From an uncultured Ruminococcus sp. (GTDB lineage: Bacteria > Bacillota > Clostridia > Oscillospirales > Acutalibacteraceae), in assembly GCA_934476515.1 (NCBI GenBank), contig CAKSNZ010000005.1, positions 58,101 through 122,100 of the forward strand: 64,000 nt of DNA. Reading direction: 5' to 3'. The notes under the pieces are model-generated. The model searched no databases and had not been told where the DNA came from. It saw nothing but the letters and a program-made list of their open reading frames with translations. A program made the position numbers and the translations under genes. This document shows, in pieces, positions 2,460-44,106 of the stretch. Within the stretch, counting starts at the first letter, position 1, and each line of letters opens with the position of its first letter.

Positions 2460-2467
2460 GTGATTTT

Positions 2468-3111: not shown

Positions 3112-3122
3112 TTTGTAAACAA

Positions 3123-3543: not shown

Positions 3544-3613
3544 TAGTGAAGCCCCTACGACTGTTTGTTGTTATTTTGTCCTGTGTAATTACCCTAAATT
3601 TGTACATATTCGC

Positions 3614-3890: not shown

Positions 3891-3975
3891 ATTTGCTAAA
3901 ATTTAACACTTTACATTTAGCCCTACAAACCCTAATTTATAGTGCTAATTACAACTCACCACAATAAAATCAAAA

Positions 3976-5571: not shown

Positions 5572-6761
5572 TCTAAAGCACCGGCTTTCATTCCTGAGGC
5601 AAAAGCAAATTGTAAATTGTATCCACCACAAATGCCGTCAATGTCAATAATCTCACCACAAAAATATAGGTTAGGAATATATAGACTTTCCAGAGTATTA
5701 GTGTTAATTTCTTTACCTGATACACCACCACAGGTAACCTGACTTTTTGAATAATCATTTTTACCGGTAGTAACAAAGTCAAATTCATTTATTATTCCGG
5801 CAAGATTTTCAATTTCTTTTTTAGAAATATCATTGCACTTTCTGTTGAAAGAACCCATTTTTCCAACCTTTAATAATGCAACAGAAAGTTTATTGTTAAA
5901 CATACCAAGGAAAAAGTCCTCAATACTGTTGTCTTTAAACAAAGTTCTTCTTTCCTTTAAAATATCAATAATTTCATTTTTACTGTAGTCAGGCATTAAG
6001 GAAACTCTTACTGTATCATAGTCAAGATAACTAAGATTAAATGCACAAATACCTGAAATACTTTCACCTGTAAACTGAATTTCACCACTGTCACTTTTAA
6101 CTACTTTACCTTTTTTCATAACAGATACTTTGCCATCAGCTCTAACACCTTTGATAGTTTTTAGAATATCAGACTTAACATTAATAGGGCAAAGTGCAGG
6201 TTTTAGCTTGGTAATAGTGTGGCCTAAGTTTTCTACAAGTGAATACATACTACCGTCACTACCAAGGTTAGGACTGCTTTTGCCACCTGTAGCAATAATT
6301 AATTTGTCACAACTGAATTTATATAAATTAGTCTTAATTTCAAAAGTCTCACCAACTGAAATATCAGTTACCCTACAGTCTGTATATATTTCAATATCGT
6401 CTTGATAAAGTCTGTTTCTAAGAATATCAAGAACTGCTGAGGCTTGTTTACATTTAGGATAAACTCTGCCACAATTATCTGCAAAGGTATATAAACCCAT
6501 ACTGTTAAAATAATTTACTATATATTTAGGAGAATATTCGGAAAATAAATTTTTAATCCCATAGCTAAAGCTACCATGATAATCTTTAATTTTAGCACCT
6601 ATATTTGTCATATTGCATTTGCCGTTACCTGTAGCTAAAATTTTCTTGCCGATTCTACTTTCCTTTTCAATAATGGCAACATTTTCGTATTGCTTTTTAG
6701 CTTCAATAGCTGCTACAATACCTGATGCACCACCACCGATTATTACAACATCATACTTCAT
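5568..6761 (-). CDS. NAD(P)/FAD-dependent oxidoreductase, HI0933/YhiN (BaiN-like) family
   Basis: This is a 397-residue flavoprotein. The start chosen is the ATG giving MKYDVVIIGGG, with GAGG six bases upstream; the frame's earlier ATG would add a hydrophobic tail with no match to the family. Features are GGGASGIVAAIEA (FAD phosphate loop), GNGKCNMTN and ATGGKS. The C-terminal CGEIIDIDGICGGYNLQFAFASG is diagnostic of the HI0933/YhiN group. Some relatives act on bile-acid enoyl intermediates, but most have no known substrate. The TGA overlaps the next gene's ATG, so the two proteins may work together. Confidence 0.86.
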   Translation of the reverse strand: MKYDVVIIGGGASGIVAAIEAKKQYENVAIIEKESRIGKKILATGNGKCNMTNIGAKIKDYHGSFSYGIKNLFSEYSPKYIVNYFNSMGLYTFADNCGRVYPKCKQASAVLDILRNRLYQDDIEIYTDCRVTDISVGETFEIKTNLYKFSCDKLIIATGGKSSPNLGSDGSMYSLVENLGHTITKLKPALCPINVKSDILKTIKGVRADGKVSVMKKGKVVKSDSGEIQFTGESISGICAFNLSYLDYDTVRVSLMPDYSKNEIIDILKERRTLFKDNSIEDFFLGMFNNKLSVALLKVGKMGSFNRKCNDISKKEIENLAGIINEFDFVTTGKNDYSKSQVTCGGVSGKEINTNTLESLYIPNLYFCGEIIDIDGICGGYNLQFAFASGMKAGALE

Positions 6762-6781
6762 ATATTTCCTCATAAAAAACA

Positions 6782-6803
6782 ATAGTGGGATTGCTCCCAC
6801 TAT
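6782..6803 (-). terminator. Rho-independent terminator after the small export gene
   Basis: The 9-bp stem ATAGTGGGA/TCCCACTAT with a 4-base loop is followed on the minus strand by TTGTTTTTT. It lies between the export protein gene and the flavoprotein gene, so it would end or attenuate transcription from the former. Confidence 0.8.
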
Positions 6804-6830
6804 CTAAAATTTTAATATTTTAATATAATT

Positions 6831-7436
6831 TTATTTTGCCTTTTTCTTCTTTAGAATATGTCTTACAACAAAGATACCGATTACTACTGCAACGATACCA
6901 CAAAGAGCAGCTACAACAACACTTGTTGGAATGTTAAATGTTGTTACAATCCAAGGAATACCGTAAGTGATAATTGTCATAATAGTTGCTGACATACATA
7001 GTCCCAAAATAGTAGCAATAAATGTTTGCTTTAAACTAAAGTTAAATAAACCGGCTACAAGACCACCTGTCCAAGCACCTGTTACAGGAAGTGGAATACC
7101 GATAAATACTGTAAGACCGAAGGTTTTGTACTTCATAATCTTAGGAGCACTTGTGTTTGCTTTATTCTCTAGGAAGTCAACAAACTTAACAACAGGACTT
7201 AACTTAGTTTTTCTCAAGAACTTTAGTAGCTTTTCAATAAACAGTACTACGAATGGGATTGGTAAGAAGTTACCAACAATACAAATTGGCAATGCTTGCC
7301 ATAGTGGTACTTTACATAGAGCAGCAGCAATCAGTCCACCACGAAGTTCCAAAATAGGGAACAATGATACTAAGAAACAGAACAACTGTCCGTTCATATG
7401 TAGCGTATCGTTTAACATATTAATAAATGATTCCAT
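6831..7436 (-). CDS. Small multidrug-export (COG2426) family membrane protein
   Basis: This 201-residue integral membrane protein has several hydrophobic helices. FPILELRGGLIAAAL near residue 25 and GIPLPVTGAWTGGLVAGLF near residue 115 are the two half-repeat signatures of the Sm_multidrug_ex (DedA-related) family. The C-terminal tail is lysine-rich (KKKKAK), placing it in the cytoplasm under the positive-inside rule. The original drug-export label rests on little evidence; a lipid- or small-molecule-translocation role is equally possible. It is transcribed alone or with the downstream flavoproteins, separated by a terminator. Confidence 0.8.
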   Translation of the reverse strand: MESFINMLNDTLHMNGQLFCFLVSLFPILELRGGLIAAALCKVPLWQALPICIVGNFLPIPFVVLFIEKLLKFLRKTKLSPVVKFVDFLENKANTSAPKIMKYKTFGLTVFIGIPLPVTGAWTGGLVAGLFNFSLKQTFIATILGLCMSATIMTIITYGIPWIVTTFNIPTSVVVAALCGIVAVVIGIFVVRHILKKKKAK

Positions 7437-7561
7437 AACATTCTCCTATCGGTCATTATTACTAAAATATTATATATTAATTTATTCAATTTATCAATAG
7501 ATTTCATTGACTTTGTTTTTAATTTTTTGTAAAATAATAGTGTATTGTGAAGGAGTGTGCT

Positions 7562-8044
7562 ATGAAATCTTTACATATGAGCAAAAAAGATAAATTAAAA
7601 GCAATTATACTCATAATTATGACTTTATGTGTTGTTGCTTTTATTTTTATGCATTCATTAACCCCGGCAACTCTCAGTGCTGAGGAGTCAGGTGCAGTTA
7701 CTGACTGGCTAACTAATTTAATACCCTTTCAGTTAACAGACCATATTGTCAGAAAAATGGCACACTTTACGGAATATTCAGTTCTTGGCTTTTTAACCTC
7801 TTTTACTGTATATTCTTTCTTCAAGAAACCAACCGGTGGAATTTTCATAAAATTGTTTGTTACTCTTTTTACAGCAGTAATTGACGAAACAATACAACTT
7901 AATGTACCCGATAGAAGTGGACAAGTAACAGATGTGCTACTTGATTTTTCAGGTGCAGTTACGGGTATAATAGTATCCACCTTGTTGATTTTGATTTACT
8001 TACTATATAAAAAAGGAAAGGAAATGAAAAATGGAAGGAACTAA
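7562..8044 (+). CDS. VanZ-like family membrane protein
   Basis: This 160-residue protein has about four membrane segments. I use the ATG at 7562, behind AAGGAG with 6-base spacing, rather than the GTG 15 bp upstream that overlaps the ribosome-binding site. KMAHFTEYSVLGFL and the later DETIQLNVPDRSGQVTDVLLDFSG are the VanZ-family signature (conserved His, Glu and Asp in the membrane). VanZ gives low teicoplanin resistance in Tn1546, but most relatives are housekeeping membrane proteins of unknown function, and no vancomycin genes are near. It overlaps the start of the MATE gene by 14 bp. Confidence 0.85.
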   Translation: MKSLHMSKKDKLKAIILIIMTLCVVAFIFMHSLTPATLSAEESGAVTDWLTNLIPFQLTDHIVRKMAHFTEYSVLGFLTSFTVYSFFKKPTGGIFIKLFVTLFTAVIDETIQLNVPDRSGQVTDVLLDFSGAVTGIIVSTLLILIYLLYKKGKEMKNGRN

Positions 8045-9416
8045 ACAAAACAAAATGGGTACTGCCCCAATGTTCAGACTTATTTTAGGTATGAGTTTAC
8101 CTGCTATGTTTAGTATGCTTATTCAGGCACTATACAACATTGTTGATAGTATGTTTGTTAGTAACTATAGCAATAGTATTTTAACCGGTAATGACTCACT
8201 ACTTTCTGTTAATATTGCTTATCCGTTACAGATGATTCTTATTTCTGTAGCAGTTGGTTCAGGTGTTGGTGTTAACTCACTAATAGCCAGAAGACTTGGT
8301 GCAAGACATCAAGAACAAGCTGACTCAGCAGCAACTCATGGATTTTTCTTAACATTTATTGACTGGTTTATATTTGTTCTTATTGGTATATTTCTTGCAA
8401 AACCATTTATCTCACTATATACAAATGACCAAGCTATTATGGATGCCAGTGTAGCCTATATCAGAATTGTACTTATCGGTTCATTAGGTTCAAATATCAC
8501 TTGTATGCTTGAAAAGGTATTGCAGTCAACAGGTAATATGATAATGCCAATGCTTAGTCAGCTAACAGGTGCAGTTATAAATATTATCCTTGACCCAATC
8601 TTTATTTACACATTTGACTTAGGTGTAGCCGGTGCTGCTATTGCAACAATTATTGCTCAGCATATTAGTGCTGTTCTTTGCTTATTCTTCTTATTTGGAA
8701 AGAAACAACTTGTAAAAATCCATGTTAAAGGATTTAGATTTAAGGCAGAAACAGTAAAGAACATTTATGTAGTTGCTTTACCTGCAATGGTTATGCAAGC
8801 TATCGGTTCATTTATGGTTATGGGTATTAACTTTATTATCTCATTGGCTCATGATACAGTAGCAGCTAAGAATGCAGCAACAAATGTATTTGGTGTTTAT
8901 TTCAAACTTCAGTCATTTGTATTTATGCCTGTATTCGGTCTAAACCAAGGTTCAACACCTATTATCGGTTTTAACTATGGTGCTAGGGATAAAAAGAGGA
9001 TGTACAGTGCTATTAAGTGGGCTATTCTCTTTGCAGTAATTATTATGACTGCCGGTTTTATTGTATTCCAAATTGTTCCGGAAGTACTTCTAGGTCTGTT
9101 TAACCCAACAGAAGAAATGCTTGATATTGGTACAGTAGCTTTGAGAATTATCTCTCTATGCTTTATTCCTGCAGCACTTGGTATTGTATTCTCAGGTGTA
9201 TTTCAGGCAGTAGGTAAGGGTGTCAGAAGTCTTATTATGTCACTACTTCGTCAGCTATGTTTAATTGTTCCTATTGCTTACTTCCTATCAAGTATCAGCC
9301 TAAAGGATATGTGGTATGCTTTCCCTCTAGCTGAAATCGGTTCACTTATTGTTGGTATTATCTTCTTTATCACTCTTGTAAAGGGTGACTTCAAGAGACT
9401 TGACCACAAGGAATAA
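8031..9416 (+). CDS. MATE family efflux transporter
   Basis: This 461-residue protein has about 12 hydrophobic helices in two MatE repeats. The start of repeat 1 (MSLPAMFSMLIQALYNIVDS) and of repeat 2 (VALPAMVMQAIGSFMVMGIN) align with each other, as the family requires. VGSGVGVNSLIARRLG and LNQGSTPIIGFNYGA are typical MATE motifs. It probably exports cationic compounds or a metabolite in exchange for Na+ or H+. The start overlaps the VanZ-like gene, so the pair is translationally coupled. The substrate cannot be predicted. Confidence 0.93.
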   Translation: MEGTKQNKMGTAPMFRLILGMSLPAMFSMLIQALYNIVDSMFVSNYSNSILTGNDSLLSVNIAYPLQMILISVAVGSGVGVNSLIARRLGARHQEQADSAATHGFFLTFIDWFIFVLIGIFLAKPFISLYTNDQAIMDASVAYIRIVLIGSLGSNITCMLEKVLQSTGNMIMPMLSQLTGAVINIILDPIFIYTFDLGVAGAAIATIIAQHISAVLCLFFLFGKKQLVKIHVKGFRFKAETVKNIYVVALPAMVMQAIGSFMVMGINFIISLAHDTVAAKNAATNVFGVYFKLQSFVFMPVFGLNQGSTPIIGFNYGARDKKRMYSAIKWAILFAVIIMTAGFIVFQIVPEVLLGLFNPTEEMLDIGTVALRIISLCFIPAALGIVFSGVFQAVGKGVRSLIMSLLRQLCLIVPIAYFLSSISLKDMWYAFPLAEIGSLIVGIIFFITLVKGDFKRLDHKE

Positions 9417-9452
9417 TTAACCTTTTACTGCATATATTTTAGTGGTGATAAT

Positions 9453-9782
9453 ATGCAGTATGATAGAAATGATGAAATTACTTATGACAAAGAATTCTTA
9501 GAAACCACTAACAGAGAATATTATAATCCCGAGGACTACAAGAATAATGACGAATTTTGTAGTGAAGAAAAAGTTTTTTCCGAAAAAAAGAAAAAACCAC
9601 TGCCAACTGTTATTTTGTGTCAGCTGATTATATGTATTCTTCTTGGCATTTTCCTTTATTGTTCCAGAACTTATGCACCTGACCTTTTCAGCAATATTAT
9701 GAGTAGTGTCAATGATATGATTAACGATTCATTGGTTGTTGACGGTAATAACCTTAATGATTATTTTGTAAATAATGGTTAA
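9453..9782 (+). CDS. Small bitopic membrane protein upstream of M50 protease; possible reduced SpoIVFA
   Basis: This 109-residue protein has an acidic N-terminal part (about 1-45), a basic KKKK stop, a single membrane segment (about residues 50-68) and a short C-terminal tail. I recognise no catalytic motif. It overlaps the M50 protease gene by 8 bp. In Bacilli and Clostridia the gene before SpoIVFB is SpoIVFA, which has a cytoplasmic N-terminus, one TM and then a LytM domain; here only the N-terminal/TM part exists. Calling it a truncated SpoIVFA-like regulator is an inference from position and topology, not from sequence identity. Confidence 0.65.
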   Translation: MQYDRNDEITYDKEFLETTNREYYNPEDYKNNDEFCSEEKVFSEKKKKPLPTVILCQLIICILLGIFLYCSRTYAPDLFSNIMSSVNDMINDSLVVDGNNLNDYFVNNG

Positions 9783-10371
9783 ACGGTTTTTAGGTGTAGA
9801 AATTTCTTTTCAATTTTACTATTTTGCTTTACTTACTATAGTCCTTATATTTGATAAAAGTGGTGGGATTTTCTGTTGCTTTTTGTCTTCATTCTTTCAT
9901 GAGATAGGACATCTTCTTGCCATTTTAGTTTTAAAGCAAAAGGTAGATAGAATAGAATTTTCATTATTTGATATAAAGATAAAGTCTAACTATTATGTTA
10001 GTTTTAGTAAAGAACTTATCATCACCCTTAGTGGTGTGGCTTTTAACCTTATATTATTTTTATTCTTTATAAGAACAATAAAGCTATTTGCCTTAGCAAA
10101 TTTATTTATAGGAATTTTCAACTTATTGCCTGTTTCCACATTAGATGGGGGACAGGCAATAAATATTATATTAAATAAGTTTATTTCTGAAGAAAAATCT
10201 GTTATAATTTTAAATATACTTACAGTGATTTTTGCAATACCTATTTTCACTTTAGGTATAATAGTTTTATTTAATACAGGATATAATTTTTCTTTCTTAC
10301 TTTTAGGTGTGTATTTATTCCTAACACCTATCTACAACAGAAAGGCTATTTCAAGAGGTAACTATGATTAA
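9775..10371 (+). CDS. Site-2 intramembrane metalloprotease (M50, SpoIVFB-like)
   Basis: This is a 198-residue polytopic membrane protein. FFHEIGHLLA (around residue 40) is the HExxH zinc motif inside a membrane helix, and LLPVSTLDGGQA (around residue 120) is the NPDG-type second motif supplying the aspartate ligand. Length and order match the short SpoIVFB subgroup of site-2 proteases, which cleave pro-sigma-K in the mother cell. There is no PDZ or CBS domain. It overlaps the one-TM protein upstream and the radical-SAM gene downstream (8 bp each). This neighbourhood recurs in Clostridia. If the organism sporulates, pro-sigma-K is the likely substrate. Confidence 0.85.
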   Translation: MVKRFLGVEISFQFYYFALLTIVLIFDKSGGIFCCFLSSFFHEIGHLLAILVLKQKVDRIEFSLFDIKIKSNYYVSFSKELIITLSGVAFNLILFLFFIRTIKLFALANLFIGIFNLLPVSTLDGGQAINIILNKFISEEKSVIILNILTVIFAIPIFTLGIIVLFNTGYNFSFLLLGVYLFLTPIYNRKAISRGNYD

Positions 10372-12214
10372 TAAGGAAGTAGAAAAATATTTATTAAAAG
10401 TTCAGAAACCGGCAAAATATGTTGGTGGTGAACTTAATGCAGTTGTAAAGAATAAGGAAGATGTAGATGTACGATTTGCATTTTGTTTTCCCGATACTTA
10501 CGAAGTAGGTATGTCCCATTTAGGAATGAAAATTCTTTACAGCCAGTTTAACAGTGTGCCATATATTTGGTGTGAAAGAGTTTTTGCACCTTGGATTGAT
10601 ATGGAAGATGTTATGAAAGAACATAACATTCCACTGTATGCACTTGAAAGTGGTGACCCACTATCTGACTTTGACTTTATCGGTTTTACTTTGCAGTACG
10701 AACTATCATTTACAAATGTTCTCAATATGCTAAAGCTAGGTAATATTCCGATTTGTTCAAAGGACAGAATGAACTTAGGTCTTAAGAATATTGTAGTAGC
10801 AGGTGGCCCATGTGCTTGTAATCCGGAACCAATAGCAGATTTTATAGATATTTTCTTTATCGGTGAAGGTGAAGAGGTTGATATGGAGGTTATGGAGCTT
10901 TACCGTCAATGTAGAGATGAAAATGTTTCAAGAGAAGAATTCTTAATCAGAGTATCTAAGATTAAGGGTTGTTATGTGCCATCCCTTTATGATGTAACTT
11001 ATAACGAAGACGGTACAGTAAAAGCAGTAACACCAAACCATGGTGCACCAAAGAAAATTGAAAAAAGATTAATGATGAATATGGATGAATGTTATTATCC
11101 TGATAACTTTGTTGTGCCAAATACTGAGATTGTCCACGATAGAGCAATGCAAGAAATTTTCAGAGGTTGTATTCGTGGATGTAGATTTTGTCAAGCCGGT
11201 TTCCTTTATAGACCTGTTAGAGAAAAGTCACCTGAAACTATCAACAAGCAGTGCCATGACCTATGTAACAATACAGGTTATGATGAAGTTTCACTTTCAT
11301 CCCTTAGTTCAAGTGACTATACTCAGATTGTTCCACTACTAACCGAATTAAATAAATGGTCAGTTGATGAACAAGTCAGTATCTCTTTACCATCATTAAG
11401 AGTTGATGGCTTTACCGATGATATTATGTCAAAAATTAAGACAGTTCGTAAAAGTGGTTTAACCTTTGCACCGGAAGCCGGTTCACAAAGATTAAGAGAT
11501 GCAATCAACAAAAATGTAAAAGAAGATGAATTACTAAAAACTTGCAGAACTGCTTTCTCAGGTGGATGGACAAGAGTAAAGCTATACTTTATGATTGGTT
11601 TACCAACAGAAACAATGGATGATGTAAATGCTATTCCGGCACTGGGCAAAACGGTTGTTGACGAATATTACAAAACTGAGGATAGACCAAAGGGTAAGTC
11701 CGTTAGTGTTACAGTTTCAGCATCCAGCTTTGTACCAAAGCCATTTACTCCATTCCAATGGGAACCACAGGATACTATTCCAACAATTCACGAAAAGCAG
11801 AAAAGTATTCTTGACCATATTGAAAGTAAGAAAATTAATTTTAACTACCACGATGCCGATACTAGCTTCCTAGAAGGTGTATTTGCCAGAGGTGACAGAA
11901 AACTTTGTAAAGCTATGAAACTAGCTTGTGAAAGAGGGTTTCACTTTGACGGTTGGAATGAATGTTTTGACTTGCAGAAATGGTTAGATTTATTTGAAGA
12001 ATGTGGAATTGACCCATCATTCTATGCTAATCGTAGAAGAAGTTTTGATGAAGTTTTACCTTGGGACCATATTGATTATGGTATCAAAAAGCAATTTTTA
12101 ATTGACGAATGTCACAAGGCATATTGTTCTACAACTACACCAAACTGTAGACAAGAATGTAGTAAATGTGGTGCAAATCGTTATGGTGGAGGTGTTTGTT
12201 TTGAAACCCGTTAG
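10364..12214 (+). CDS. TIGR03960-type B12-binding/radical SAM protein
   Basis: This is a 616-residue protein. An N-terminal cobalamin-binding-like Rossmann region (PDTYEVGMSHLGMKILY, then GGPCACNPEPIADFIDIFFIGEGE) precedes the radical-SAM core. The CxxxCxxC motif lies in GCIRGCRFCQAG near residue 270. A cysteine-rich tail (CRQECSKCGANRYGGGVC) ends the protein. The product of the family is unknown; it nearly always precedes the DUF2344 gene, as here, where the two overlap by 14 bp. The usual rng or rplU neighbours are absent from this side. Confidence 0.92.
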   Translation: MINKEVEKYLLKVQKPAKYVGGELNAVVKNKEDVDVRFAFCFPDTYEVGMSHLGMKILYSQFNSVPYIWCERVFAPWIDMEDVMKEHNIPLYALESGDPLSDFDFIGFTLQYELSFTNVLNMLKLGNIPICSKDRMNLGLKNIVVAGGPCACNPEPIADFIDIFFIGEGEEVDMEVMELYRQCRDENVSREEFLIRVSKIKGCYVPSLYDVTYNEDGTVKAVTPNHGAPKKIEKRLMMNMDECYYPDNFVVPNTEIVHDRAMQEIFRGCIRGCRFCQAGFLYRPVREKSPETINKQCHDLCNNTGYDEVSLSSLSSSDYTQIVPLLTELNKWSVDEQVSISLPSLRVDGFTDDIMSKIKTVRKSGLTFAPEAGSQRLRDAINKNVKEDELLKTCRTAFSGGWTRVKLYFMIGLPTETMDDVNAIPALGKTVVDEYYKTEDRPKGKSVSVTVSASSFVPKPFTPFQWEPQDTIPTIHEKQKSILDHIESKKINFNYHDADTSFLEGVFARGDRKLCKAMKLACERGFHFDGWNECFDLQKWLDLFEECGIDPSFYANRRRSFDEVLPWDHIDYGIKKQFLIDECHKAYCSTTTPNCRQECSKCGANRYGGGVCFETR

Positions 12215-34600: not shown

Positions 34601-34950
34601 GTTTTTCTGTAACAAAAATTCAAATTATCTAAAATGGATTATCTGAAAATGATTATCTAATAATTAAAATTATTTTCAATTAAATAGAATAATTGTTTCT
34701 CAAAGTTGCTGATGTATTTTGCATCAGCAATTTTTTTGCCTTGTTTATTTTATAAATAAAACACCTATAATTTATTATGCACTAAAATTTGTCAGTTTGT
34801 TAAGATGTATTATACATAATGCGAGAAAAGAATTTTTTGTGTTATTTTCTGTTACCTTTTATGCTCTTAAAGGGTATTAGCTTGTGAAAGGACAAAACAA
34901 GAGTCCTTCAAAAAAGAAAGATAAAGGAAGAGTAAGAAAGGAAGATTTTT
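34601..34950. other. 350-bp intergenic region between sulfur and hydantoinase loci
   Basis: This A/T-rich stretch holds repeated ATTATCT words near 34625-34665, the terminator at 34706-34737, and a leader before the cysteine hydrolase gene with a small AAGGAC/GTCCTT hairpin near 34887-34910. I see no strong sigma-A promoter for the downstream gene; TTGTCA near 34789 with TACATA is only a weak candidate. There is no gene. Confidence 0.6.
34706..34737 (+). terminator. Rho-independent terminator of the sulfur operon
   Basis: TTGCTGATG/CATCAGCAA forms a 9-bp stem with a 7-base loop, then seven T residues. It separates the sulfur operon from the hydantoinase locus. Confidence 0.92.
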
Positions 34951-35685
34951 ATGTCAAACAAGGATTATAAGTTTGTGGACCATTATTCATTCGATGAGGA
35001 CCTTCTAAAGAAAGCTTTTGCAGAAGCTAGAGAAGTGTACAAAGAACGTGGTTTTATGAGAAAGATGGGCTTTGGTAAAGCACCTGCAATTACAACAGTT
35101 GATATGGCAAAGGCTTGGATGTCAGAAGGTCATCCATTCACTTGTGACCATTCAGAAGAAGTTTGTGCTGAAGCCTTAAAAGTTCTTGAAGCAGCTCGTA
35201 AAGTTGGTGTTCCAATTTTCCACACAACAACAGGTTTTGTTGGTAAAGAACAGTGGGACCTTCCAAGATGGGATGAAAAAATTCCGGTTAGTACACTAGA
35301 TATTAACAGTGATTGGATGGACATTGACCCTAAGCTAAAGCCAAGACCTGAAGAACCTGTTATTCATAAGAAATTTGCTTCTAATTTCTTTGGTACTCAT
35401 TTAGCACAGACACTTAACTACTTAGGTGTTGATACAGTAATTGTTATGGGTGCTACAGCTTGTGCTTGTGTTAGACACACAGTAATGGATTCAACAGGCT
35501 ATGGTTTCAGAACAATCGTTCCTGAAGGAACAGTTGGTGATAGAGTTCCCGGTGTTGTTGAATGGAACCTATTTGATATGGAAGCAAAATTTGCTGATGT
35601 TGTTCCGGTAGATGAGGTTGTTAAGTATCTTGAAGGTATTGACCCATCAGTTTATACTAAACATGCTAGAAAGTTTGACAAATAA
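34951..35685 (+). CDS. Isochorismatase-fold cysteine hydrolase, N-carbamoylsarcosine amidase-like
   Basis: This 244-residue enzyme has the triad Asp51 (TTVDMAKAW), Lys141 (HKKFASNFFGT) and Cys173 (GATACACVRHT), the order of cysteine hydrolases such as N-carbamoylsarcosine amidase. An N-terminal extension (residues 1-42) and GFGKAPAITTVDM-type start also fit that group. Next to HyuA/HyuB, the likely reaction is hydrolysis of the N-carbamoyl product (N-carbamoylsarcosine to sarcosine, CO2 and ammonia). Other ureido or nicotinamide-type substrates cannot be excluded. A close, cysteine-less copy is fused to a sigma factor at 42891. Confidence 0.85.
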   Translation: MSNKDYKFVDHYSFDEDLLKKAFAEAREVYKERGFMRKMGFGKAPAITTVDMAKAWMSEGHPFTCDHSEEVCAEALKVLEAARKVGVPIFHTTTGFVGKEQWDLPRWDEKIPVSTLDINSDWMDIDPKLKPRPEEPVIHKKFASNFFGTHLAQTLNYLGVDTVIVMGATACACVRHTVMDSTGYGFRTIVPEGTVGDRVPGVVEWNLFDMEAKFADVVPVDEVVKYLEGIDPSVYTKHARKFDK

Positions 35686-35712
35686 TAAAAAATTCTTATA
35701 ATATGAAATATT

Positions 35713-35762
35713 AGCAGAGACAATGAGGTTTCTATTTAGAACTTTGTTGCCTCTGCTTTTTT
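35713..35762 (+). terminator. Terminator or attenuator after the hydrolase gene
   Basis: AGCAGAG (35713-35719) and CTCTGCT (35751-35757) form the outer stem of a long hairpin with further partial pairing, followed by six T residues. It lies between the hydrolase and hyuA, so some transcripts may stop here. Confidence 0.7.
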
Positions 35763-35787
35763 GTTTTTGAAATGGAGTGATTGAGTT

Positions 35788-37866
35788 ATGAAGAGAATCG
35801 GCGTTGACGTTGGTGGTACATTTACTGACTTTATCTATGTTGATGATGACGGTAAAATCGAGGTGTACAAAACTTCTACAACACCTCATGACCCATCAAT
35901 CGGTATGATGGAAGGTATTAATGCAGTTTGTGACAAACTTGGAATTGAACATAGCGAAATTGATGAAATATTCCATGGCACAACTATTGCAACAAATATG
36001 GTTCTTGAACATAAAGGTGCAAGAGCCGGTATGATTACAACAAAAGGATATAGAGATATTATCCATATTGCTAGACACAAGAGACCTACTAACTTTTCAA
36101 TTGTAGAAGACATTCCATGGCAGAAATACCCGGTATGTCAGAGAAGAGATAGATATGGTGTAGAAGAAAGAGTTGTTTCTCCTAATGGTGACGAACTTAT
36201 TCCTCTAAATGAAGAAGAAGTAAGACAAGCTGTTAGAAAGATGAAGAAAGATAAAGTGGAAGCTATTGCAGTATGTTTCTTGTTCTCTTTCTTAAATCCT
36301 GCCCATGAACAAAGGGTTAAAGAAATTATTAAGGAAGAATACCCGGAAGTATATATTTCATTAAGCTCTGAAGTTCTCCCTCAGTTTAGAGAATATGAAA
36401 GATTTACTACAACCGGTCTTAATGCATATATCGGACCTACGACTTCACGATATATTAAACAGCTCCGAAAGACTCTTGTTGAACAGGGATATACAGCTAA
36501 TGTGCACCTAATGCAATCATTTGGTGGTGTTGCATCAGCAGAAGCTGCCCAGAAAAAGCCGGTTAATCTTCTTTTATCCGGACCGGTTGGTGGTGTTCTT
36601 GGTGCTATCTGGACAACTAAATTAACAGACATCAACAATGTTATCACTCTTGACATTGGTGGTACATCAGCTGATATTTCTGTTCTTGCTGACCTAAAAC
36701 CAAGTATGAAACACTTGTTAGACACTAAGGTTGGTGGCTATGCTGCTATGGTACCTATGATTGATGTTGGTACAATCGGTGCCGGTGGTGGTTCAATGGC
36801 ATATATTGATGAAGGTGGATTCTTTAGAGTAGGTCCACAATCAGCAGGTGCTGTACCGGGTCCGGCTTGTTATAATCGTGGTGGTGAAGAACCAACAGTT
36901 TCTGATGCCAATATTATCCTTGGCAGATTAGGTACAAAGCTACTTGGTGGTAGAATGGAAATCAAGCCTGAACTGGCTGAAAAAGCTATTATGAGCCGTA
37001 TCGGTGAACCACTGGACAAAAGCCTTGATGAGGCTGCACTTGGTATTATTGATATTATGAACAATAATATGATTCAAGAAATTGAAAAGGAAAGTGTTCG
37101 TAGAGGTTTTGACCCAAGAGAATTTGCTCTATTTGCTTGTGGTGGTGCAGGTTCACTTCATGCCTGTAGTGTAGCCAGAGAGCTTGGTATGAAACAGGTT
37201 GTTGTACCTCTAAACCCAGGTGCTTTGTGTGCAGTTGGTCTTGTTAATACTGATTTGATGTATGACTTCTCTAAGACAGAAATGCAACTTGCATCAAATG
37301 TTGATTTAGAATCACTAAAGAAAGACTATGCTTCCCTTGAAAAGAAAGCTCACGATAGACTTATTGAAGATAATATGTCTGAAGACGAAATTGTTATTCA
37401 GAGAGTTGCTGACTGTAGATATGAAGGTCAAGGTTATGAAATGCGTGTACCTGTTATCGGTGGTGAAGTAACAGAAGAAACAATTGAAAAAATGAAAGAA
37501 TCTTTCCATATTGCCCACAAAAAGCAGTTTGGTCGTTCATATAGACAGGTTGATATTGAAATTGTTAATATCCGTGTAATTGGTACAGGTGAAATCGAAG
37601 ACCTAGAACCAATTAAAATTCAGAAGAGTTCCGGCAATATTGAAGATGCAGTTGTTGACGAAAGAATGGTTACATTCAAGGTTGACGAAAAGCCGGTTAA
37701 AATGTCAACTAAGGTTTATGACAGAACAAAGTTTGGTGCCGGTGATGTTATTAACGGTCCGGCTATTATCAATCAGATGGATACAACTATTGTTGTTGAA
37801 CCGGGCTGTGTAGGTCGTGTAAACGATTACGGTATTATTGTTATTGATATTAATGTTGAAGAATAA
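35788..37866 (+). CDS. hyuA: Hydantoinase/oxoprolinase subunit A (ATP-dependent)
   Basis: This 692-residue protein has the Hydant_A_N start MKRIGVDVGGTFTDFIYVDD (actin-like ATP fold), HGTTIATNMVLEHKGA, and TLDIGGTSADIS and GGGSMAYIDEGG in the hydantoinase A core. With HyuB it forms an ATP-hydrolysing ring-opening amidohydrolase (N-methylhydantoinase, oxoprolinase or acetone-carboxylase relatives). The adjacent carbamoyl amidase favours N-methylhydantoin or hydantoin as substrate. It starts 102 bp after the amidase gene behind a terminator-like hairpin. Confidence 0.92.
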   Translation: MKRIGVDVGGTFTDFIYVDDDGKIEVYKTSTTPHDPSIGMMEGINAVCDKLGIEHSEIDEIFHGTTIATNMVLEHKGARAGMITTKGYRDIIHIARHKRPTNFSIVEDIPWQKYPVCQRRDRYGVEERVVSPNGDELIPLNEEEVRQAVRKMKKDKVEAIAVCFLFSFLNPAHEQRVKEIIKEEYPEVYISLSSEVLPQFREYERFTTTGLNAYIGPTTSRYIKQLRKTLVEQGYTANVHLMQSFGGVASAEAAQKKPVNLLLSGPVGGVLGAIWTTKLTDINNVITLDIGGTSADISVLADLKPSMKHLLDTKVGGYAAMVPMIDVGTIGAGGGSMAYIDEGGFFRVGPQSAGAVPGPACYNRGGEEPTVSDANIILGRLGTKLLGGRMEIKPELAEKAIMSRIGEPLDKSLDEAALGIIDIMNNNMIQEIEKESVRRGFDPREFALFACGGAGSLHACSVARELGMKQVVVPLNPGALCAVGLVNTDLMYDFSKTEMQLASNVDLESLKKDYASLEKKAHDRLIEDNMSEDEIVIQRVADCRYEGQGYEMRVPVIGGEVTEETIEKMKESFHIAHKKQFGRSYRQVDIEIVNIRVIGTGEIEDLEPIKIQKSSGNIEDAVVDERMVTFKVDEKPVKMSTKVYDRTKFGAGDVINGPAIINQMDTTIVVEPGCVGRVNDYGIIVIDINVEE

Positions 37867-37899
37867 GCATTGATAAATAACAGGAAAGGAAGATTTTTT

Positions 37900-39681
37900 A
37901 TGAAAAATGTTATTGAAGGTTTAAATATTCCTAGAGTAAAAGTTGATCCGGTTACTTTGCAGGTTCTTGGTGGTTCATTTAAGATGATTGCACAGGAAAT
38001 GGGTATGGTTCTATATAGAATGTCATATTCAAGTATCATTCGTGAATCAGAAGATATTGGTGCAGGTATTGTTGATACAGTTGGTCGTCAGCTTTGTGAA
38101 AGTGAAAGTACACCAATGCATGTTGGTTCAATCGGTGGTAATGTTAAAGGTATCTTAACAAGATGGAAACTTGAAGATATTCATGAAGGTGATATTTTCA
38201 TCCATAACCACCCATTCCATGGTACTTCTCATTCACCTGATATTCATATTTGTATTCCTATTTTCTATAAAGGAAAATTAATCAGTTTCTCTTGTGTTCA
38301 GGCTCACTTGCTTGATAATGGTTCTCATACACCGGGTATGGATGTATTTGCCAGAGATGTATATGCTGAAACAAGAATTTATTATGGCTTAAAGCTATAT
38401 GAAAAGGGCAAGAGAAATGACCAGTTATGGCAGATGATTCTTGATAATGTTCGTACTCCGTCAATGAACGAAAACGACTTAAAGGCTATGATTGCTTCTG
38501 CTAAACACGGTATTAAACGTTTTACAGAACTACTTGATAAATATAGTGTAGAAGTTGTATTTTCTGCTATTGAAGATTGGATGGATTATTCCGAGAGAAT
38601 GTTGCGTAGTGCAATTAGCAAAGTACCTGATGGCACATATTATGCAGAAGGTTGGTTGGATAATGACGGTAAGCATCTTGATAAAATGCTTAAAGTTTGT
38701 ACAACAACTACTATCAAGGGTGACTCAGTAACAATCGACCTAACAGGTAGTGCAGATGAAGTTTATACAGCATTTAACGCATCTTTTGAAGGTACAACAA
38801 AAACTTCAATTAACTACATTATGCATGCACTGTTCCTTGATGATGATATTTATGAACAGTACATTCCTCAGAATGATGGTATGGCTAGACCTGTAACAAT
38901 TATTGCTCCTAAGGGTTGTATCTTTAATCCTAACTTTCCAAGAGCAAGTTTCTCAAGATTTAACCAAGCTAATTTACTTGCTGACTGTGTAATGCGTTCA
39001 TTAGCAGGTGTTATGCCGGAAAGAGTTTCAGCCGGTACATCAGCACATATTCACTTTGTAAGTTACAACGGCTTTAATAAGTCTAAAGGTGAATATTGGG
39101 TTTATCTTGAAGTTGATGAAGGTTCATATGGTGGTCGTTATGGCAAAGATGCCATTGACTCATGTGATGCACTTGTAGCCAATACAAGAAATGTTCCTAT
39201 TGAGGAAATTGAGTGGCACTATCCACTAAGAGTTGAAAGATATGAACTAAACCCTGCAAAGGTTGCACCCGGTAAGTGGAGAGGTGGTCTTGGTATCGTA
39301 AGAGAAACAAGATTTTTACAAGAAGGTACAGTTACTTGTGAAGGTGACCGTCACAAAGAAGCTCCTAAGGGTATCTTTGGTGGTTATGATGGTACATCAG
39401 CAAGTATGACTAAGAACCCTGATTCAGATAATCCTAAGTCATTGGAATCAAAACTATCTGATGAAGAATTTGCAGCCAACGATGTTTTGCAGATTTGTAC
39501 TCCTTGTGGTGGTGGCTACGGCAACCCACTTGAAAGAGATCCTGAAATGGTGCTTGGAGATGTTCTTGACGACTTTACAACAGTAGAGGATGCTGAAAAA
39601 TCTTATGGTGTTGTAATTGATGCATCTACAATGACAGTTGATGTTGAAAAAACAACAGCTCTAAGAAACTCAATGAAATAA
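37900..39681 (+). CDS. hyuB: Hydantoinase/oxoprolinase subunit B
   Basis: This 593-residue protein belongs to the Hydantoinase_B family. The ATG at 37900 follows AGGAAAGGAAG and gives MKNVIEGLNIPRVKVDPVTLQVLGG; the longer frame has no ribosome-binding site. DIFIHNHPFHGTSHSPDIHICIP and CGGGYGNPLERDPE are typical. It works with HyuA in ATP-dependent opening of a cyclic ureide or lactam. It lies 33 bp after hyuA. Confidence 0.92.
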   Translation: MKNVIEGLNIPRVKVDPVTLQVLGGSFKMIAQEMGMVLYRMSYSSIIRESEDIGAGIVDTVGRQLCESESTPMHVGSIGGNVKGILTRWKLEDIHEGDIFIHNHPFHGTSHSPDIHICIPIFYKGKLISFSCVQAHLLDNGSHTPGMDVFARDVYAETRIYYGLKLYEKGKRNDQLWQMILDNVRTPSMNENDLKAMIASAKHGIKRFTELLDKYSVEVVFSAIEDWMDYSERMLRSAISKVPDGTYYAEGWLDNDGKHLDKMLKVCTTTTIKGDSVTIDLTGSADEVYTAFNASFEGTTKTSINYIMHALFLDDDIYEQYIPQNDGMARPVTIIAPKGCIFNPNFPRASFSRFNQANLLADCVMRSLAGVMPERVSAGTSAHIHFVSYNGFNKSKGEYWVYLEVDEGSYGGRYGKDAIDSCDALVANTRNVPIEEIEWHYPLRVERYELNPAKVAPGKWRGGLGIVRETRFLQEGTVTCEGDRHKEAPKGIFGGYDGTSASMTKNPDSDNPKSLESKLSDEEFAANDVLQICTPCGGGYGNPLERDPEMVLGDVLDDFTTVEDAEKSYGVVIDASTMTVDVEKTTALRNSMK

Positions 39682-39689: not shown

Positions 39690-39729
39690 AACAAGGGTGT
39701 TTACATTGGTATTCACCCTTGTTTTTGTT
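39690..39729 (+). terminator. Hairpin terminator between hyuB and the permease gene
   Basis: AACAAGGGTG (39690-39699) and CACCCTTGTT (39714-39723) form a 10-bp stem followed by TTTGTTT, ending only about 20 bp before the permease ATG. It may attenuate readthrough so that the transporter is made in lower amounts than HyuAB. Confidence 0.8.
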
Positions 39730-39747
39730 TATTGGGGAGTGAGAGAA

Positions 39748-41919
39748 ATGTCAAAGGAAAGAGAAAAAGTAAAAGAAATGGGAAAGTCTTCTCTTATTTC
39801 TGAAGATATACTTCCAATAACTTCTAGCAAAAGAACCTTAGGTGGACTTGGTTTTGCTAATATTTGGATTGGTATGGCAATTGTAATTTCAGTTTTCAGT
39901 TTTGGTGCTAGTGGTATTGATGGAATGAATATTTGGGGTGTTATGTCTGCTACATTAGTAGCGAATATAATCATTGCAGTAGTTGGTAGCTTAACCGGTG
40001 ATATTGGTGTTGAACATGGTATTTCCTTTGCTATTTATCTAAGAGCCCCATTTGGTACAGTTGGTGTTCATCTACCGGCAATTGCAAGAGGTATTGTTGC
40101 TTCTTGTTGGTTTGGTATTAACACCTACATTGGTTCAACAGCAATTAACTACTTTACACTTGCTCTGTTTGGAATAGACAACTGGTTCTTGTGGTTTATT
40201 ATTTTTGCAATAGTTCAGATTGGTAACACAATGCTTGGCCTAAAAGGTATTGATAAGTTTGCATCATTTGCAGCACCTTGTATTATTCTAATTACTTGTT
40301 GGATGTTCTATAAGGTCAACAACATTGCAGTAATTAACAATGTTTCAATCTTTGGTTATAAGCCTCCACACCCATCAGCAACTTGTTGGATTACAACAAT
40401 GTGTGCCAATATCGGTATGTGGGCAGCACTTGCAGCTGATATTCCAAACTTTACACGAAGTCTAAAATCCACTATGGGTGAGCGAAATTGGCTAAAGCGT
40501 AACCGTAATAACTGGATTCCACAGTTTGCAACCTTACCTATTATTGAAACTTTTATTGCAGCTATTGGTGCTATTTCCTACCTAACAACAGGCAACTGGA
40601 ACCCTGTAGAAGTTATTCAGTCACAAGCTAAAGGTGTAACACTTATTATCTTACTAGTAATGGTTATCTTAGCACAGTGGTCAACTAATACAGCAGCTAA
40701 CCTAGTACCACCGGCAATGTGCTTTACAAATGCCGGAGCAAAGTGGAACTTACCATATAAAGTAGCAGTATTAATTGCAGGTTTAATCGGTGTTTGTGTA
40801 ATGCCTTGGGAAATCTTAGATCAGCTTTATACTTACCTAGGTTACTTTGGTTCATTCCTATCAGCCTTAGCAGGTATTATGCTTTGTGATTATTATGTAA
40901 TTCGTCACAGAAGATTAAATGTACTTGATATGTTTAAGTCAGATGGTCAGTATCGTTACCACAAAGGTTTCAATATTGCAGGCCTTATAGCTTGGATAGC
41001 AGGTACAATAATAGCAAATGTATTTTCTGACTATGGTTATTTGTTTGGACTACCAACAGGTTTCTTAGTTTATTTACTGCTAATGAAAACTTGGTATCTA
41101 AAGAAATTCCCTCAAGCTGAAGTTACTTCCGATTATTCAGAAGAATTTCTTGGAATGTCAGTAGGTCACGATTGGGTAGTACCGGGTTACGAAAAGTTTG
41201 CCGGTGTTATTCCTGATATTGATTCTTCTTTGGTAGAAAATGTAAATGTTTCTTCTTATCATGGTGGTAAAGATTACGAAAATGCTACAGGTCATAAACT
41301 TGTAATTACATTTGGTAGAGAATATGGCAGTAGAGGTAAAGATTTTGCAGCTTTACTTGCTAAACGGCTGGATATACCCTATTACGATGAAGATATGATT
41401 AAACTTGCAGCACAAAAACTTAATGTTTCCGAAACTGTTTTAGCAGAGGAAGAAGAAACACCTCGTAGCGAACTTAAGACAGCTCTTACAAAAGGTGGTA
41501 TGTTTGCAGCTAAAGAATATGAAGGTTCAAATGTAGATAAAATGTTTATGGTACAGTCCCAGATTATTTTGGAATTGGCTAAGAAATCACCTTGTATTAT
41601 TGTTGGCAGATGTTCAAACTATGTTCTTGAAAATGCCAAGATACCAACAATAGATGTGTTTGTTGCAGCAAATCTTGAAGACAGAATCAAGAATATAATG
41701 AAACGAAAGCACTTGTCCCATGAAAAGGCAAAGAACCACTTAATCAAAAAGGAAAAGTGCAGAGAATCATATTTCAATTACTATACTTCCTATGAATGGG
41801 GTAAACCTCAGTATTATGACTTGTGTGTAAATACAAGTAGTATGGACTTAGATGATTTGGTTGATCATGTAGAATCCTATATTAATACGAATATAAGTAA
41901 TCATATTGGAAAAAAGTAA
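39748..41919 (+). CDS. NCS1-type permease fused to a cytidylate kinase-like domain
   Basis: This is a 723-residue protein. Residues about 30-465 form an NCS1 (cytosine/hydantoin/allantoin) transporter with about 12 membrane helices; NIGMWAALAADIPNFTRS and QWSTNTAANLVPPAMCF are family landmarks. After a roughly 50-residue linker, residues about 515-720 match the cytidylate kinase-like (PF13189-type) family: VITFGREYGSRGKDFAALLAKRL, LDIPYYDEDMI and IIVGRCSNYVLE. The start chosen is ATG 39748 behind GGGGAGTGAG. The context suggests uptake of N-methylhydantoin or a related ureide. The kinase-like tail could phosphorylate a substrate or sense nucleotides; neither is shown. The fusion is continuous in one frame. 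Confidence 0.87.
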   Translation: MSKEREKVKEMGKSSLISEDILPITSSKRTLGGLGFANIWIGMAIVISVFSFGASGIDGMNIWGVMSATLVANIIIAVVGSLTGDIGVEHGISFAIYLRAPFGTVGVHLPAIARGIVASCWFGINTYIGSTAINYFTLALFGIDNWFLWFIIFAIVQIGNTMLGLKGIDKFASFAAPCIILITCWMFYKVNNIAVINNVSIFGYKPPHPSATCWITTMCANIGMWAALAADIPNFTRSLKSTMGERNWLKRNRNNWIPQFATLPIIETFIAAIGAISYLTTGNWNPVEVIQSQAKGVTLIILLVMVILAQWSTNTAANLVPPAMCFTNAGAKWNLPYKVAVLIAGLIGVCVMPWEILDQLYTYLGYFGSFLSALAGIMLCDYYVIRHRRLNVLDMFKSDGQYRYHKGFNIAGLIAWIAGTIIANVFSDYGYLFGLPTGFLVYLLLMKTWYLKKFPQAEVTSDYSEEFLGMSVGHDWVVPGYEKFAGVIPDIDSSLVENVNVSSYHGGKDYENATGHKLVITFGREYGSRGKDFAALLAKRLDIPYYDEDMIKLAAQKLNVSETVLAEEEETPRSELKTALTKGGMFAAKEYEGSNVDKMFMVQSQIILELAKKSPCIIVGRCSNYVLENAKIPTIDVFVAANLEDRIKNIMKRKHLSHEKAKNHLIKKEKCRESYFNYYTSYEWGKPQYYDLCVNTSSMDLDDLVDHVESYINTNISNHIGKK

Positions 41920-41921
41920 TA

Positions 41922-41975
41922 GATATAAAGGCTAAGGAGAATTTTCTATAGGAAGGTTCTCCTTATAGCCATATC
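41922..41975. promoter_or_regulatory. Long imperfect inverted repeat before the EamA gene
   Basis: GATATAAAGGCTAAGGAGAA (41922-41941) is largely complementary to 41957-41975, with a small bulge. It has no T-run after it, so it is not a typical terminator. It could be an RNA processing site or an operator between the permease and the EamA-sigma pair. Confidence 0.45.
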
Positions 41976-42004: not shown

Positions 42005-42877
42005 ATGAGTTCAATTTTTATAATTATTGCAGGTATATTGTGGGGTATAATCTCAGTATTTGTCACATCTCTAAAGTCAATAGGTTTTTCTTCAATGGAA
42101 GTAGTAGCCCTAAGAGTTATCTTTTCAGCAATTATTTTATTAATATACCTACTTGTTATTGATAGAAGTAAATTGAAAATAAAGCTAAAGGATATACCTC
42201 TATTTTGTGGTACAGGTATTTGCAGTATAGTATTCTTTAATTTTTGTTATTTTCAGTCAATAGAAATTATTGGTGGTGCAGCAATTCCGGCATTGTTGCT
42301 TTATACTGCTCCTATATTTGTTATGTTTATGTCACTGTTTTTATTTAAAGAAAATATAACAGTAAAGAAAGTTATTTCACTTTTAGTAACTATTCTTGGA
42401 ATGTGTTTTTTGACAGGTGTGTTTTCCGGTAAAGAAACCATTACATTAGAAGGTTTTTTGTATGGTTTAGGTGCAGGTTTTGGTTATGCACTTTACAGTA
42501 TTTTCGGAAAGTTCTTATTGAAAAAATATGACTCTATGACTATTACAACATATACATTTGTTGTAGCATCTGTAGCAGTAATTCCGTTTTCAGGAATAAT
42601 TAAAGACTATAATTTAATGCTAAATACAGAAAGCCTTCTGTGGTCACTGGGTCTAGCTTTAGTATGTACAATTTTACCTTTTATTTTATATACAAAAGGC
42701 CTACTGAAGATTGAGGCAGGTAAAGCATCTATCCTTGCAACAGTAGAACCATTTGTAGCTGCAATAATTGGTGTAACAGTATTTAGCGAAAGTATAACGG
42801 TAGAAAAAATTATAGGTATGGTTTTAATTTTATTTGCAATCATACTTTTAAATATAAATATAAAAAAAGCAAAGTAA
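42005..42877 (+). CDS. EamA/DMT family transporter
   Basis: This 290-residue protein has ten predicted membrane helices in two EamA repeats (IIAGILWGIISVFVTSL at the start and LYGLGAGFGYALYSIFGKF for the second). ATVEPFVAAIIGV is the conserved DMT segment near the end. It may export a product of the locus or take up a metabolite; no direct substrate cue exists. The sigma-fusion gene follows after 13 bp with a good GGAGGT site, so the two are co-expressed. Confidence 0.9.
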   Translation: MSSIFIIIAGILWGIISVFVTSLKSIGFSSMEVVALRVIFSAIILLIYLLVIDRSKLKIKLKDIPLFCGTGICSIVFFNFCYFQSIEIIGGAAIPALLLYTAPIFVMFMSLFLFKENITVKKVISLLVTILGMCFLTGVFSGKETITLEGFLYGLGAGFGYALYSIFGKFLLKKYDSMTITTYTFVVASVAVIPFSGIIKDYNLMLNTESLLWSLGLALVCTILPFILYTKGLLKIEAGKASILATVEPFVAAIIGVTVFSESITVEKIIGMVLILFAIILLNINIKKAK

Positions 42878-42890: not shown

Positions 42891-44066
42891 ATGGATATAA
42901 AGAATGTTATCAATCAGTATTACGATATGGTTCATAAAATTGCTTATAGCAAAACTCAAAATGTTAATGATGCTGACGATTTAACACAAGAAGTATTTTT
43001 AAAATATCTTCAGTCAGACAAAAAGTTTGATAGTGATGACCATATTAAGAATTGGCTAATTAGGGTTACAATCAATACCTATTTACATCAGATTTCATCA
43101 GGTTGGAACAAAAACACAACCTATATGACAGATGAACTTCTTGGTGCTATGGAGGGTGCAAATTCTAACTTTTCCTATGAAGACAACTATGTTGTTGAAG
43201 ATGATATTTATGATATAATCAAAACATTACCGGACTCAAACAGAAATGTACTGTGGGATTTTTATTACAAAGATATGAGCATAAGACAAATTGCACTTAA
43301 CGAAAACAAAACTGAAAGTGCAGTAAAAATGTTACTTTCCAGAAGTAGAAAAGTCCTAAAGGAGAAGATGGAACAAAGACACCTTATCTCAGAAAAGCTA
43401 TTTATCTCTGTTGATAAACAACTTAAAAATTACTTTAAAGCCTATGAACAAAAGTACATAGAAAGTGGCAGAATTTATACCCATAGAAAGCCTGTCAAGA
43501 ACATTTGTGTGGTAATTGTGGATATGGCAAATGGTTGGACAAAACCGGGTCATCCATTTGCTTGTGATATAGGCAATACAGTTGTAAATGCAAGGAAAAT
43601 TTGTGACGCAATACGAAAAACAAATAAACTTCCGTTAATGTTTACAAAAACTTGTTTCCACAAAAAAGGTAAAGAAAAATTAAAACTTAATGGCAGAAAA
43701 ATTCCGGCAGAAAATCTTGAAGTGGAAAATTATTGGACAGAAATTGATGATATTCTTGATGTTCAAGATTGTGAAATGGTAATGACAAAGTATTGTATGA
43801 GTTGCTTTGGTAAACCTGAATTTGAAAAGTATCTTCAAGCTATGGAAGTAGATACTATAATGATTGCAGGTGTAACTGCCTCAGGTGCAATTAGATATAC
43901 TGTAATGGATGCCCACTGTAGAGGTTATAATGTTATTGTAGTAAAAGATGCAATAGCCGATAGAATACCCGGTGCAGTGTATTGGAATTTGTTTGATATG
44001 GAAATGAACTTTGCCAAGACTATGTCAACAGATAATGCAATTAAACTAATTGAGCAGTATTCATAA
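42891..44066 (+). CDS. ECF-type sigma factor fused to a catalytically dead isochorismatase-like domain
   Basis: This is a 391-residue two-domain protein in one uninterrupted frame. Residues about 5-70 are sigma region 2 (NDADDLTQEVFLKYL, IKNWLIRVTINTYL). Residues about 112-165 are region 4 (LPDSNRNVLWDFYYKDMSIRQIA, ESAVKMLLSRSRKVL). Residues about 205-388 form an isochorismatase fold very like the 244-residue enzyme of this locus (shared pieces HPFACD, RIPGAVYWNLFDME versus RVPGVVEWNLFDME). Asp211 and Lys300 of the triad are kept, but the nucleophile position is Ala333 (TASGAIRYT against ACACVRHT). A ligand-sensing, non-hydrolytic regulator of the hydantoinase genes is the natural inference. 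A terminator follows at once. Confidence 0.9.
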   Translation: MDIKNVINQYYDMVHKIAYSKTQNVNDADDLTQEVFLKYLQSDKKFDSDDHIKNWLIRVTINTYLHQISSGWNKNTTYMTDELLGAMEGANSNFSYEDNYVVEDDIYDIIKTLPDSNRNVLWDFYYKDMSIRQIALNENKTESAVKMLLSRSRKVLKEKMEQRHLISEKLFISVDKQLKNYFKAYEQKYIESGRIYTHRKPVKNICVVIVDMANGWTKPGHPFACDIGNTVVNARKICDAIRKTNKLPLMFTKTCFHKKGKEKLKLNGRKIPAENLEVENYWTEIDDILDVQDCEMVMTKYCMSCFGKPEFEKYLQAMEVDTIMIAGVTASGAIRYTVMDAHCRGYNVIVVKDAIADRIPGAVYWNLFDMEMNFAKTMSTDNAIKLIEQYS

Positions 44067-44106
44067 GAAAACCTCCCTAATGTTTTAACAATAGGGAGGT
44101 TTTCTT
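44065..44106. terminator. Strong bidirectional terminator
   Basis: AAGAAAACCTCCCTA (44065-44079) pairs perfectly with 44092-44106 over 15 bp with a 12-base loop. It begins at the sigma-fusion stop codon and also overlaps the end of the convergent rodA-like gene. Confidence 0.92.

Follow-up and report, generated by a model that had tools for sequence, protein, structure and literature searches.

Positions 42891–44066 (forward strand) of the window, the 64,000-nucleotide stretch of an uncultured Ruminococcus sp. contig analysed here, hold an unbroken reading frame that starts with ATG, six bases behind a GGAGGT motif, and encodes a 391-aa fusion of an ECF sigma factor with an N-carbamoylsarcosine amidohydrolase (CSHase) domain that lacks its nucleophile. 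Three Pfam matches, all above their cut-offs, define the architecture: sigma region 2 at residues 7–70 (42909–43100; PF04542, Sigma70_r2, 6.1e-13), sigma region 4 at residues 105–158 (43203–43364; PF08281, Sigma70_r4_2, 7.4e-7, with the Pfam match itself covering residues 105–154) and a CSHase-like domain of isochorismatase fold at residues 206–381 (43506–44033; PF00857, Isochorismatase, 1.3e-26). The joining of these three parts in one frame, first described in a first-pass annotation made from the sequence alone, is thereby confirmed. A long, conserved linker (residues 71–104, 43101–43202), which we propose as a contact site of the sensor domain, separates regions 2 and 4. Region 4 is followed by a junction helix (residues 165–192, 43383–43466), which by structural match and alignment is the homologue of the CSHase N-terminal helix. 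Immediately 3' of the gene, an inverted repeat recognized by eye (44067–44104) is probably its terminator, and it is absent from the six sites of the terminator scan.

The sigma part belongs to the ECF type (group 4), with regions 2 and 4 above cut-off and no Pfam match to regions 1 or 3; the TIGR02937 sigma70-ECF profile was matched with 72.5 bits (cut-off 42.9). Region 4 is followed by a C-terminal extension of about 225 residues, and the neighbours of the fusion gene (ORFs of at least 100 aa) include no anti-sigma gene, in agreement with the earlier description of a self-contained factor. The direct neighbours encode an EamA transporter and, on the opposite strand, an FtsW/RodA protein. At the level of the gene, the long extension and the lack of an adjacent anti-sigma gene are those of an ECF factor with a regulatory C-terminal extension.

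The CSHase domain is nearly full-length and starts before the segment recognized by Pfam. Structural similarity to 1nba, an N-carbamoylsarcosine amidohydrolase, begins at model residue 167, and the fusion aligns from this residue onwards with the N-terminal helix of CSHases. 1nba is also the closest solved relative by sequence (E 4e-38), with a Cys opposite Ala333 of the fusion, and CSHase is likewise the sensor domain's nearest solved relative in the structural comparison. Structure prediction of the full protein from a 43-row alignment (pLDDT 81.2, against 69.5 from 10 rows) recovered the 1nba-like isochorismatase fold; the linker has low confidence in this model, which resolves neither it nor the packing of the domains (pTM 0.58).

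The catalytic residues were compared in an alignment of 10 fusions and 105 CSHases. The latter comprise the CSHase of the window and those 104 that measure 205–280 aa among 120 listed from 782 found; of the fusions, P0001 and P0002 are almost identical to each other, and P0005, which ends before the nucleophile site, was left out. Asp211 (43521–43523) and Lys300 (43788–43790) of the catalytic triad are kept in all 10 fusions, and the codon at 43887–43889 is GCA, giving Ala333 at the place of the nucleophilic Cys, as the first-pass annotation had read them. The loss of Cys is common to the aligned fusions, which carry Ala in nine cases, Ser in one and Cys in none, whereas Cys is present in 102 of the 105 CSHases and the other three have a gap. 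The fusion thus has the isochorismatase fold of a CSHase without the Asp-Lys-Cys triad of the enzyme.

Many of the positions conserved in CSHases are nevertheless retained, with Asp211, Trp216, Arg242, Lys270, Asp286, Lys300, Ser304, Thr329, Arg335, Asp357, Arg358, Trp365, Phe368 and Asp369 present in every fusion. Among the 67 columns conserved in at least 95% of CSHases, 25 are kept in all 10 fusions and 36 in at least nine, while 22 keep the CSHase residue in no more than three. Changes common to all 10 are Gly215 for Ala, Lys or Arg253 for Thr, and Met, Ile or Leu303 for Ala; Met372 replaces Ala in nine. In the numbering of the window CSHase, the places of Lys141, Ala143, Ala212 and Lys213 are altered in 10 of 10 fusions and that of His176 in seven. 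Since 22 of the 67 near-invariant columns are altered in at least seven fusions, the ligand need not be the substrate of the enzyme.

Two protein searches, in a database of 5.8 billion sequences, yielded nine full-length fusion clusters with the same domain order (P0002, P0003, P0004 and P0006–P0011), which are 39–98% identical to the window protein; one of them contains 440 member sequences. In one search, 22 proteins were obtained, comprising by their Pfam labels nine fusions, P0005, 11 other sigma-domain proteins and one isochorismatase-family protein. G001, the nearest genome examined (96.7% identical over 24.7 kb), encodes the fusion at 98% identity, and this, together with the nine clusters, contradicts an assembly error joining two separate genes, which had been raised at the outset as a possible objection. 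G001 was also the only genome in which the fusion was seen among 59 relatives and among 161, 394 and 391 genomes drawn from the genus, the order and the class, respectively, sets that overlap and of which the first two were judged among the best matches listed. When species genomes were scanned with two short words, a procedure that may miss near kin, three places were obtained where only the enzyme part matched. The rarity of the fusion in genomes is therefore a soft statement, and the protein clusters are its main record. Among plasmid records, 42 had a match, and none had one place covering 80% of the fusion query. We also observed a 271-aa form, P0005, with 99 member sequences, that ends within the sensor domain; by analogy with truncations of ECF41 this form might act as a sigma factor free of regulation, or it might be no more than a broken allele or fragment.

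Selection appears to act on the entire protein. Between the window and G001 the fusion gene differs by 34 synonymous and 8 replacement changes, with a dN/dS of 0.050 overall, 0.034 for residues 1–165 and 0.059 for residues 166–391, and positions in both halves are invariant across the 10 fusions. On these comparisons, the sensor domain is a conserved relative of CSHase, devoid of the nucleophile and under purifying selection, and the shared changes combined with the low dN/dS look like the acquisition of a new function and not like decay.

The origin of the sensor domain was addressed in a 40-row tree, in which nine fusion sensor domains form one group (100/100 support) with the CSHases P0115, P0116, P0117, P0123 and P0126 as sister (99/93) and the window CSHase on another branch; this tree has long branches, a long-branch warning for P0011 and P0009, and a bootstrap that was not settled. 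The identity between the sensor and the G001 CSHase, which shows no replacement change from that of the window, is about 36%. The sensor had been called a dead copy of a catabolic enzyme; a local duplication of the neighbouring CSHase was considered in this sense and rejected, the tree, for all its long branches, placing the sensor beside another CSHase clade. The P0011 fusion and the CSHase P0123, which keeps its Cys, come from source contigs of equal size (22,614) and the same sources (jgi, lgn), and they probably share one contig; direct observation of a sigma fusion close to a CSHase is limited to the window and G001.

The linker between sigma regions 2 and 4 distinguishes the fusions from other ECF factors. 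It measures 34 residues in all nine distinct fusions, against 20–26 residues in 23 unfused ECFs (21 from the genus and two from the order). Comparing only pairs with a core identity of 0.30–0.50 in both sets (means 0.45 and 0.41), the mean pair identity of the linker was 0.41 in fusions (26 of 36 pairs) and 0.16 in unfused ECFs (220 of 253 pairs), a contrast part of which may reflect paralogy, as the unfused ECFs belong to several groups. Ser70, Trp72, Thr76, Glu88, Phe94, Asp98 and Tyr100 are invariant in this region in the 10 fusions. Ser70 (16 of 23), Trp72 (11 of 23) and Thr76 (9 of 23) are also common in the unfused ECFs, whereas Phe94 (2 of 23), Asp98 (4 of 23) and Tyr100 (1 of 23) are rare there, and Glu88 lies within the added part.

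Upstream of the fusion gene and on the same strand, five genes form with it an apparent operon, as suggested by their order and spacing, in which the fusion is last. The first encodes a CSHase (34951–35685; 1nba, 1e-59) that keeps its nucleophile, Cys173. It is followed by the subunits A (HyuA, 35788–37866; PF01968, PF05378 and PF19278) and B (HyuB, 37870–39681; PF02538, 4e-148) of a hydantoinase/oxoprolinase, an NCS1-type permease carrying a cytidylate-kinase-like domain at its C-terminus (39697–41919; PF02133 and PF13189) and an EamA-type transporter (42005–42877; PF00892, 1e-41), whose gene ends 13 bases before that of the fusion. A route from N-methylhydantoin via N-carbamoylsarcosine to sarcosine has been described in Clostridium FS41 (PMC4417704), and the predicted chemistry of the gene set fits it. 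HyuA and HyuB also match caprolactamase models below the cut-offs (635 and 258 of 1000 bits), and given these matches the substrate of the gene set itself is uncertain. A search of G001 for sarcosine reductase (PF07355) returned no match and was uninformative, as the control matched in none of 14 genomes.

The same five genes occur in the same order in G626, a genome from another family of the class, where only the enzyme part of the fusion query was matched and the fusion is absent. Upstream of this CSHase set and divergent to it, a 501-aa protein (8943–10448 of locus L034) without Pfam match, whose start resembles a helix-turn-helix by eye, may be the regulator of the gene set. In a further genome, G689, a CSHase lies near genes for glycine/sarcosine/betaine reductase, an amidohydrolase, a sigma54 activator and a GntR regulator (2331–8812 of locus L035). 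This is another arrangement of a pathway of the same kind, and it fits sarcosine as the product of such CSHases. From these three genomes, hosts seem to differ in the regulator that they employ for the pathway, and the sigma fusion would be one such regulator.

The architecture, the disarmed and conserved CSHase domain and the position of the gene behind a hydantoin/N-carbamoylsarcosine-type set make it fairly probable that the fusion is a one-component, cytoplasmic, metabolite-gated ECF sigma factor. The metabolite-responsive sigma factor envisaged by the first-pass annotation gains weight from these features, although the ligand that it assumed, a carbamoyl substrate or product, may differ given the 22 changed columns. 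More specifically, and here we are tentative, an evolved substrate trap, created in a catabolic enzyme by the change of Cys to Ala or Ser, may have been combined with an ECF sigma factor into a self-contained, metabolite-gated switch for ureide (creatinine-type) breakdown that acts via a co-evolved sigma2–sigma4 linker; the subunit that selects promoters for RNA polymerase would then also be the receptor for a carbon/nitrogen source. The permease would import a hydantoin or ureide, and accumulating N-carbamoylsarcosine (alternatively N-methylhydantoin, sarcosine or a related compound) would occupy the dead pocket and escape hydrolysis there. Closing of the pocket would shift the junction helix and the conserved linker, and regions 2 and 4 would thereby be freed, or assembled, for RNA polymerase. 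The resulting holoenzyme would transcribe the CSHase–hydantoinase–permease genes as well as the fusion's own gene, until the active CSHase clears the ligand and resets the switch.

That a domain of this fold can hold a ligand without its nucleophile is known from laboratory mutants: structures have been obtained of maleamate amidase C149A with maleate (4l08), of BiuH C169S with biuret (6xjm) and of TrtA C162S with triuret (6xje). The inactivity of TrtA C162S allowed its cocrystallization, and its helix alpha2 shifts by about 4.5 Å on binding (PMC7948467); in the same source, the C169S mutant of RhdBiuH was not seen to hold triuret. By analogy with TrtA, a helix movement on binding is a plausible source of the signal in the fusion.

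Several known systems resemble the fusion in part. The prevailing view of ECF factors makes them the outputs of membrane anti-sigma factors, and at least 26 ECF groups carry extensions predicted to regulate (PMC8999054). One-protein ECFs with a regulatory C-terminal domain have been described in ECF41, with a SnoaL domain, and in ECF238/CorE (PMC8999054, PMC3426412). ECF41 members (SigJ, Ecf41Bli) share with the fusion the regions 2 and 4, a C-terminal extension, the lack of an adjacent anti-sigma gene and a location near target enzyme genes (PMC3426412, PMC8999054), and their sigma2–sigma4 linker contains a conserved motif, which is unusual for ECFs and parallels the unusually conserved linker of the fusion (PMC3426412). 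The extension of ECF41 contacts this linker and prevents polymerase binding (PMC8999054); partial truncation raised activity about 20-fold and 120-fold, and full removal abolished it (PMC3426412). The extension is SnoaL-like, however, as in ECF56, and the accessible text of these sources names no specific ligand for it, whereas that of the fusion is an isochorismatase domain (PF00857) of CSHase type without nucleophile, encoded beside a live CSHase. ECF238/CorE unites ligand sensor and sigma factor in a single protein (PMC8999054), as is proposed for the fusion, but senses metal through Cys in a Cys-rich C-terminus and has no enzyme-derived domain. In MocR/GabR regulators an enzyme fold serves as effector domain joined to a transcription part (PMC6917764, PMC5320631); these are PLP-dependent DNA-binding regulators with a winged helix and an aminotransferase fold, neither of which was matched by Pfam in the fusion, and not sigma subunits. 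From 1nba and other isochorismatase-like hydrolases the fusion differs in the missing Cys, the altered columns and the attachment to a sigma factor.

The word isochorismatase is absent from the text of the ECF review PMC8999054, and no ECF sigma–isochorismatase or sigma–CSHase fusion was found in the literature by titles and the starts of abstracts, a search in whose scope subscription papers were mostly not included. The first-pass annotation knew of no described system of this design; as a general statement this gives way to the precedents ECF41 and ECF238/CorE, and within the literature covered it holds for the isochorismatase version. By its domain composition, the fusion adds an isochorismatase variant to the ECF factors with C-terminal regulatory extensions.

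Enzymes of the isochorismatase fold are oligomers, and the dead domain could instead be a docking or oligomerization module. Its partner would be a second copy of itself or the active CSHase, the latter acting as an anti-sigma or co-sigma factor that reports enzyme level or occupancy. In TrtA the substrate is bound by a residue of another subunit (PMC7948467), protein contacts made by the C-terminal extension are believed to control ECF42 factors (PMC8999054), and the changes common to the fusions could be interface residues. Docking, however, needs none of Asp211, Lys300, Arg335, Asp357 and Arg358, all of which are kept in every fusion, and the low identity between sensor and CSHase and their separate branches make mixed oligomers less likely, so that we regard this explanation as rather unlikely. 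A similarly low probability is assigned to a sensor that recognizes something other than a pathway ureide, such as another N-carbamoyl compound or amide or a general nitrogen signal, and controls another or a wider regulon. The altered near-invariant columns and the uncertain substrate of the gene set, with its sub-cut-off caprolactamase matches, speak for it; the 13-base spacing from the EamA gene of the set and a closest solved relative that is the very enzyme encoded in that set speak against it.

The two remaining explanations concern the integrity of the protein and its chemistry. A join that has no function or is almost neutral, a gene in decay or an artefact of assembly would accord with the restriction to G001 in the four overlapping genome sets and with the existence of the 271-aa form, but nine clusters of the same order at 39–98% identity, one of them with 440 members, a dN/dS of 0.05 and invariant positions in both halves render it very improbable. 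Less credible still is an enzyme that works through another nucleophile, for example Cys305 or Cys225, which are both invariant in the 10 fusions: Cys225 occurs in 105 of 105 CSHases, Cys305 was found alongside the true Cys in the six CSHases checked that are nearest to the fusions in the tree, and both residues look inherited. Cys305 was rejected as a replacement nucleophile on this ground.

If the proposed metabolite gating is correct, the fusion would be a sigma factor with a soluble nutrient as its direct ligand, and one-component sensing and sigma switching would be combined in one chain. The signal and mechanism of ECF41-type extensions were left open (PMC3426412, PMC8999054, in the parts accessible); the disarmed enzyme domain suggests a ligand class, and it makes binding, gating and the role of the linker directly testable. 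Synthetic circuits could also draw on such a protein as a compact sigma factor gated by a ligand, and it would help to study how anaerobes, with gut species as a guess, control the breakdown of creatinine-type nitrogen.

Searches for promoters and RNA elements gave few candidates. In the CSHase leader (34740–34950), two blocks seen by eye are conserved in G001, but two genomes about 97% alike are too similar for footprinting and cannot single out a promoter, and the blocks were discarded as a promoter of the sigma factor. A Sigma70 scan of the window found 45 sites against 38.9 (sd 6.8) in shuffled sequences, so that most of these sites are noise, and the sole Rfam match was dismissed as chance (22.1 bits, gathering score 86). 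A hairpin with a T run (35713–35770, forward strand), not among the terminator-scan sites, lies between the CSHase gene and hyuA, with an exact TTGACA-16-TATAAT match 5' of it at 35675–35702. The region folds with −22.5 kcal/mol (35675–35787, z −3.2) in the window and, with a U run, with −33.2 kcal/mol (z −4.3) at the corresponding place in G626 (L034 7783–7906, reverse strand), and it has the look of an attenuator or a partial terminator that both families have kept. Another hairpin, lacking a T run and seen by eye between the permease and EamA genes (41930–41970), may be a processing or stabilizing element. The join of the permease to a cytidylate-kinase-like PF13189 domain is also found in the G626 gene set (L034 1707–3836).
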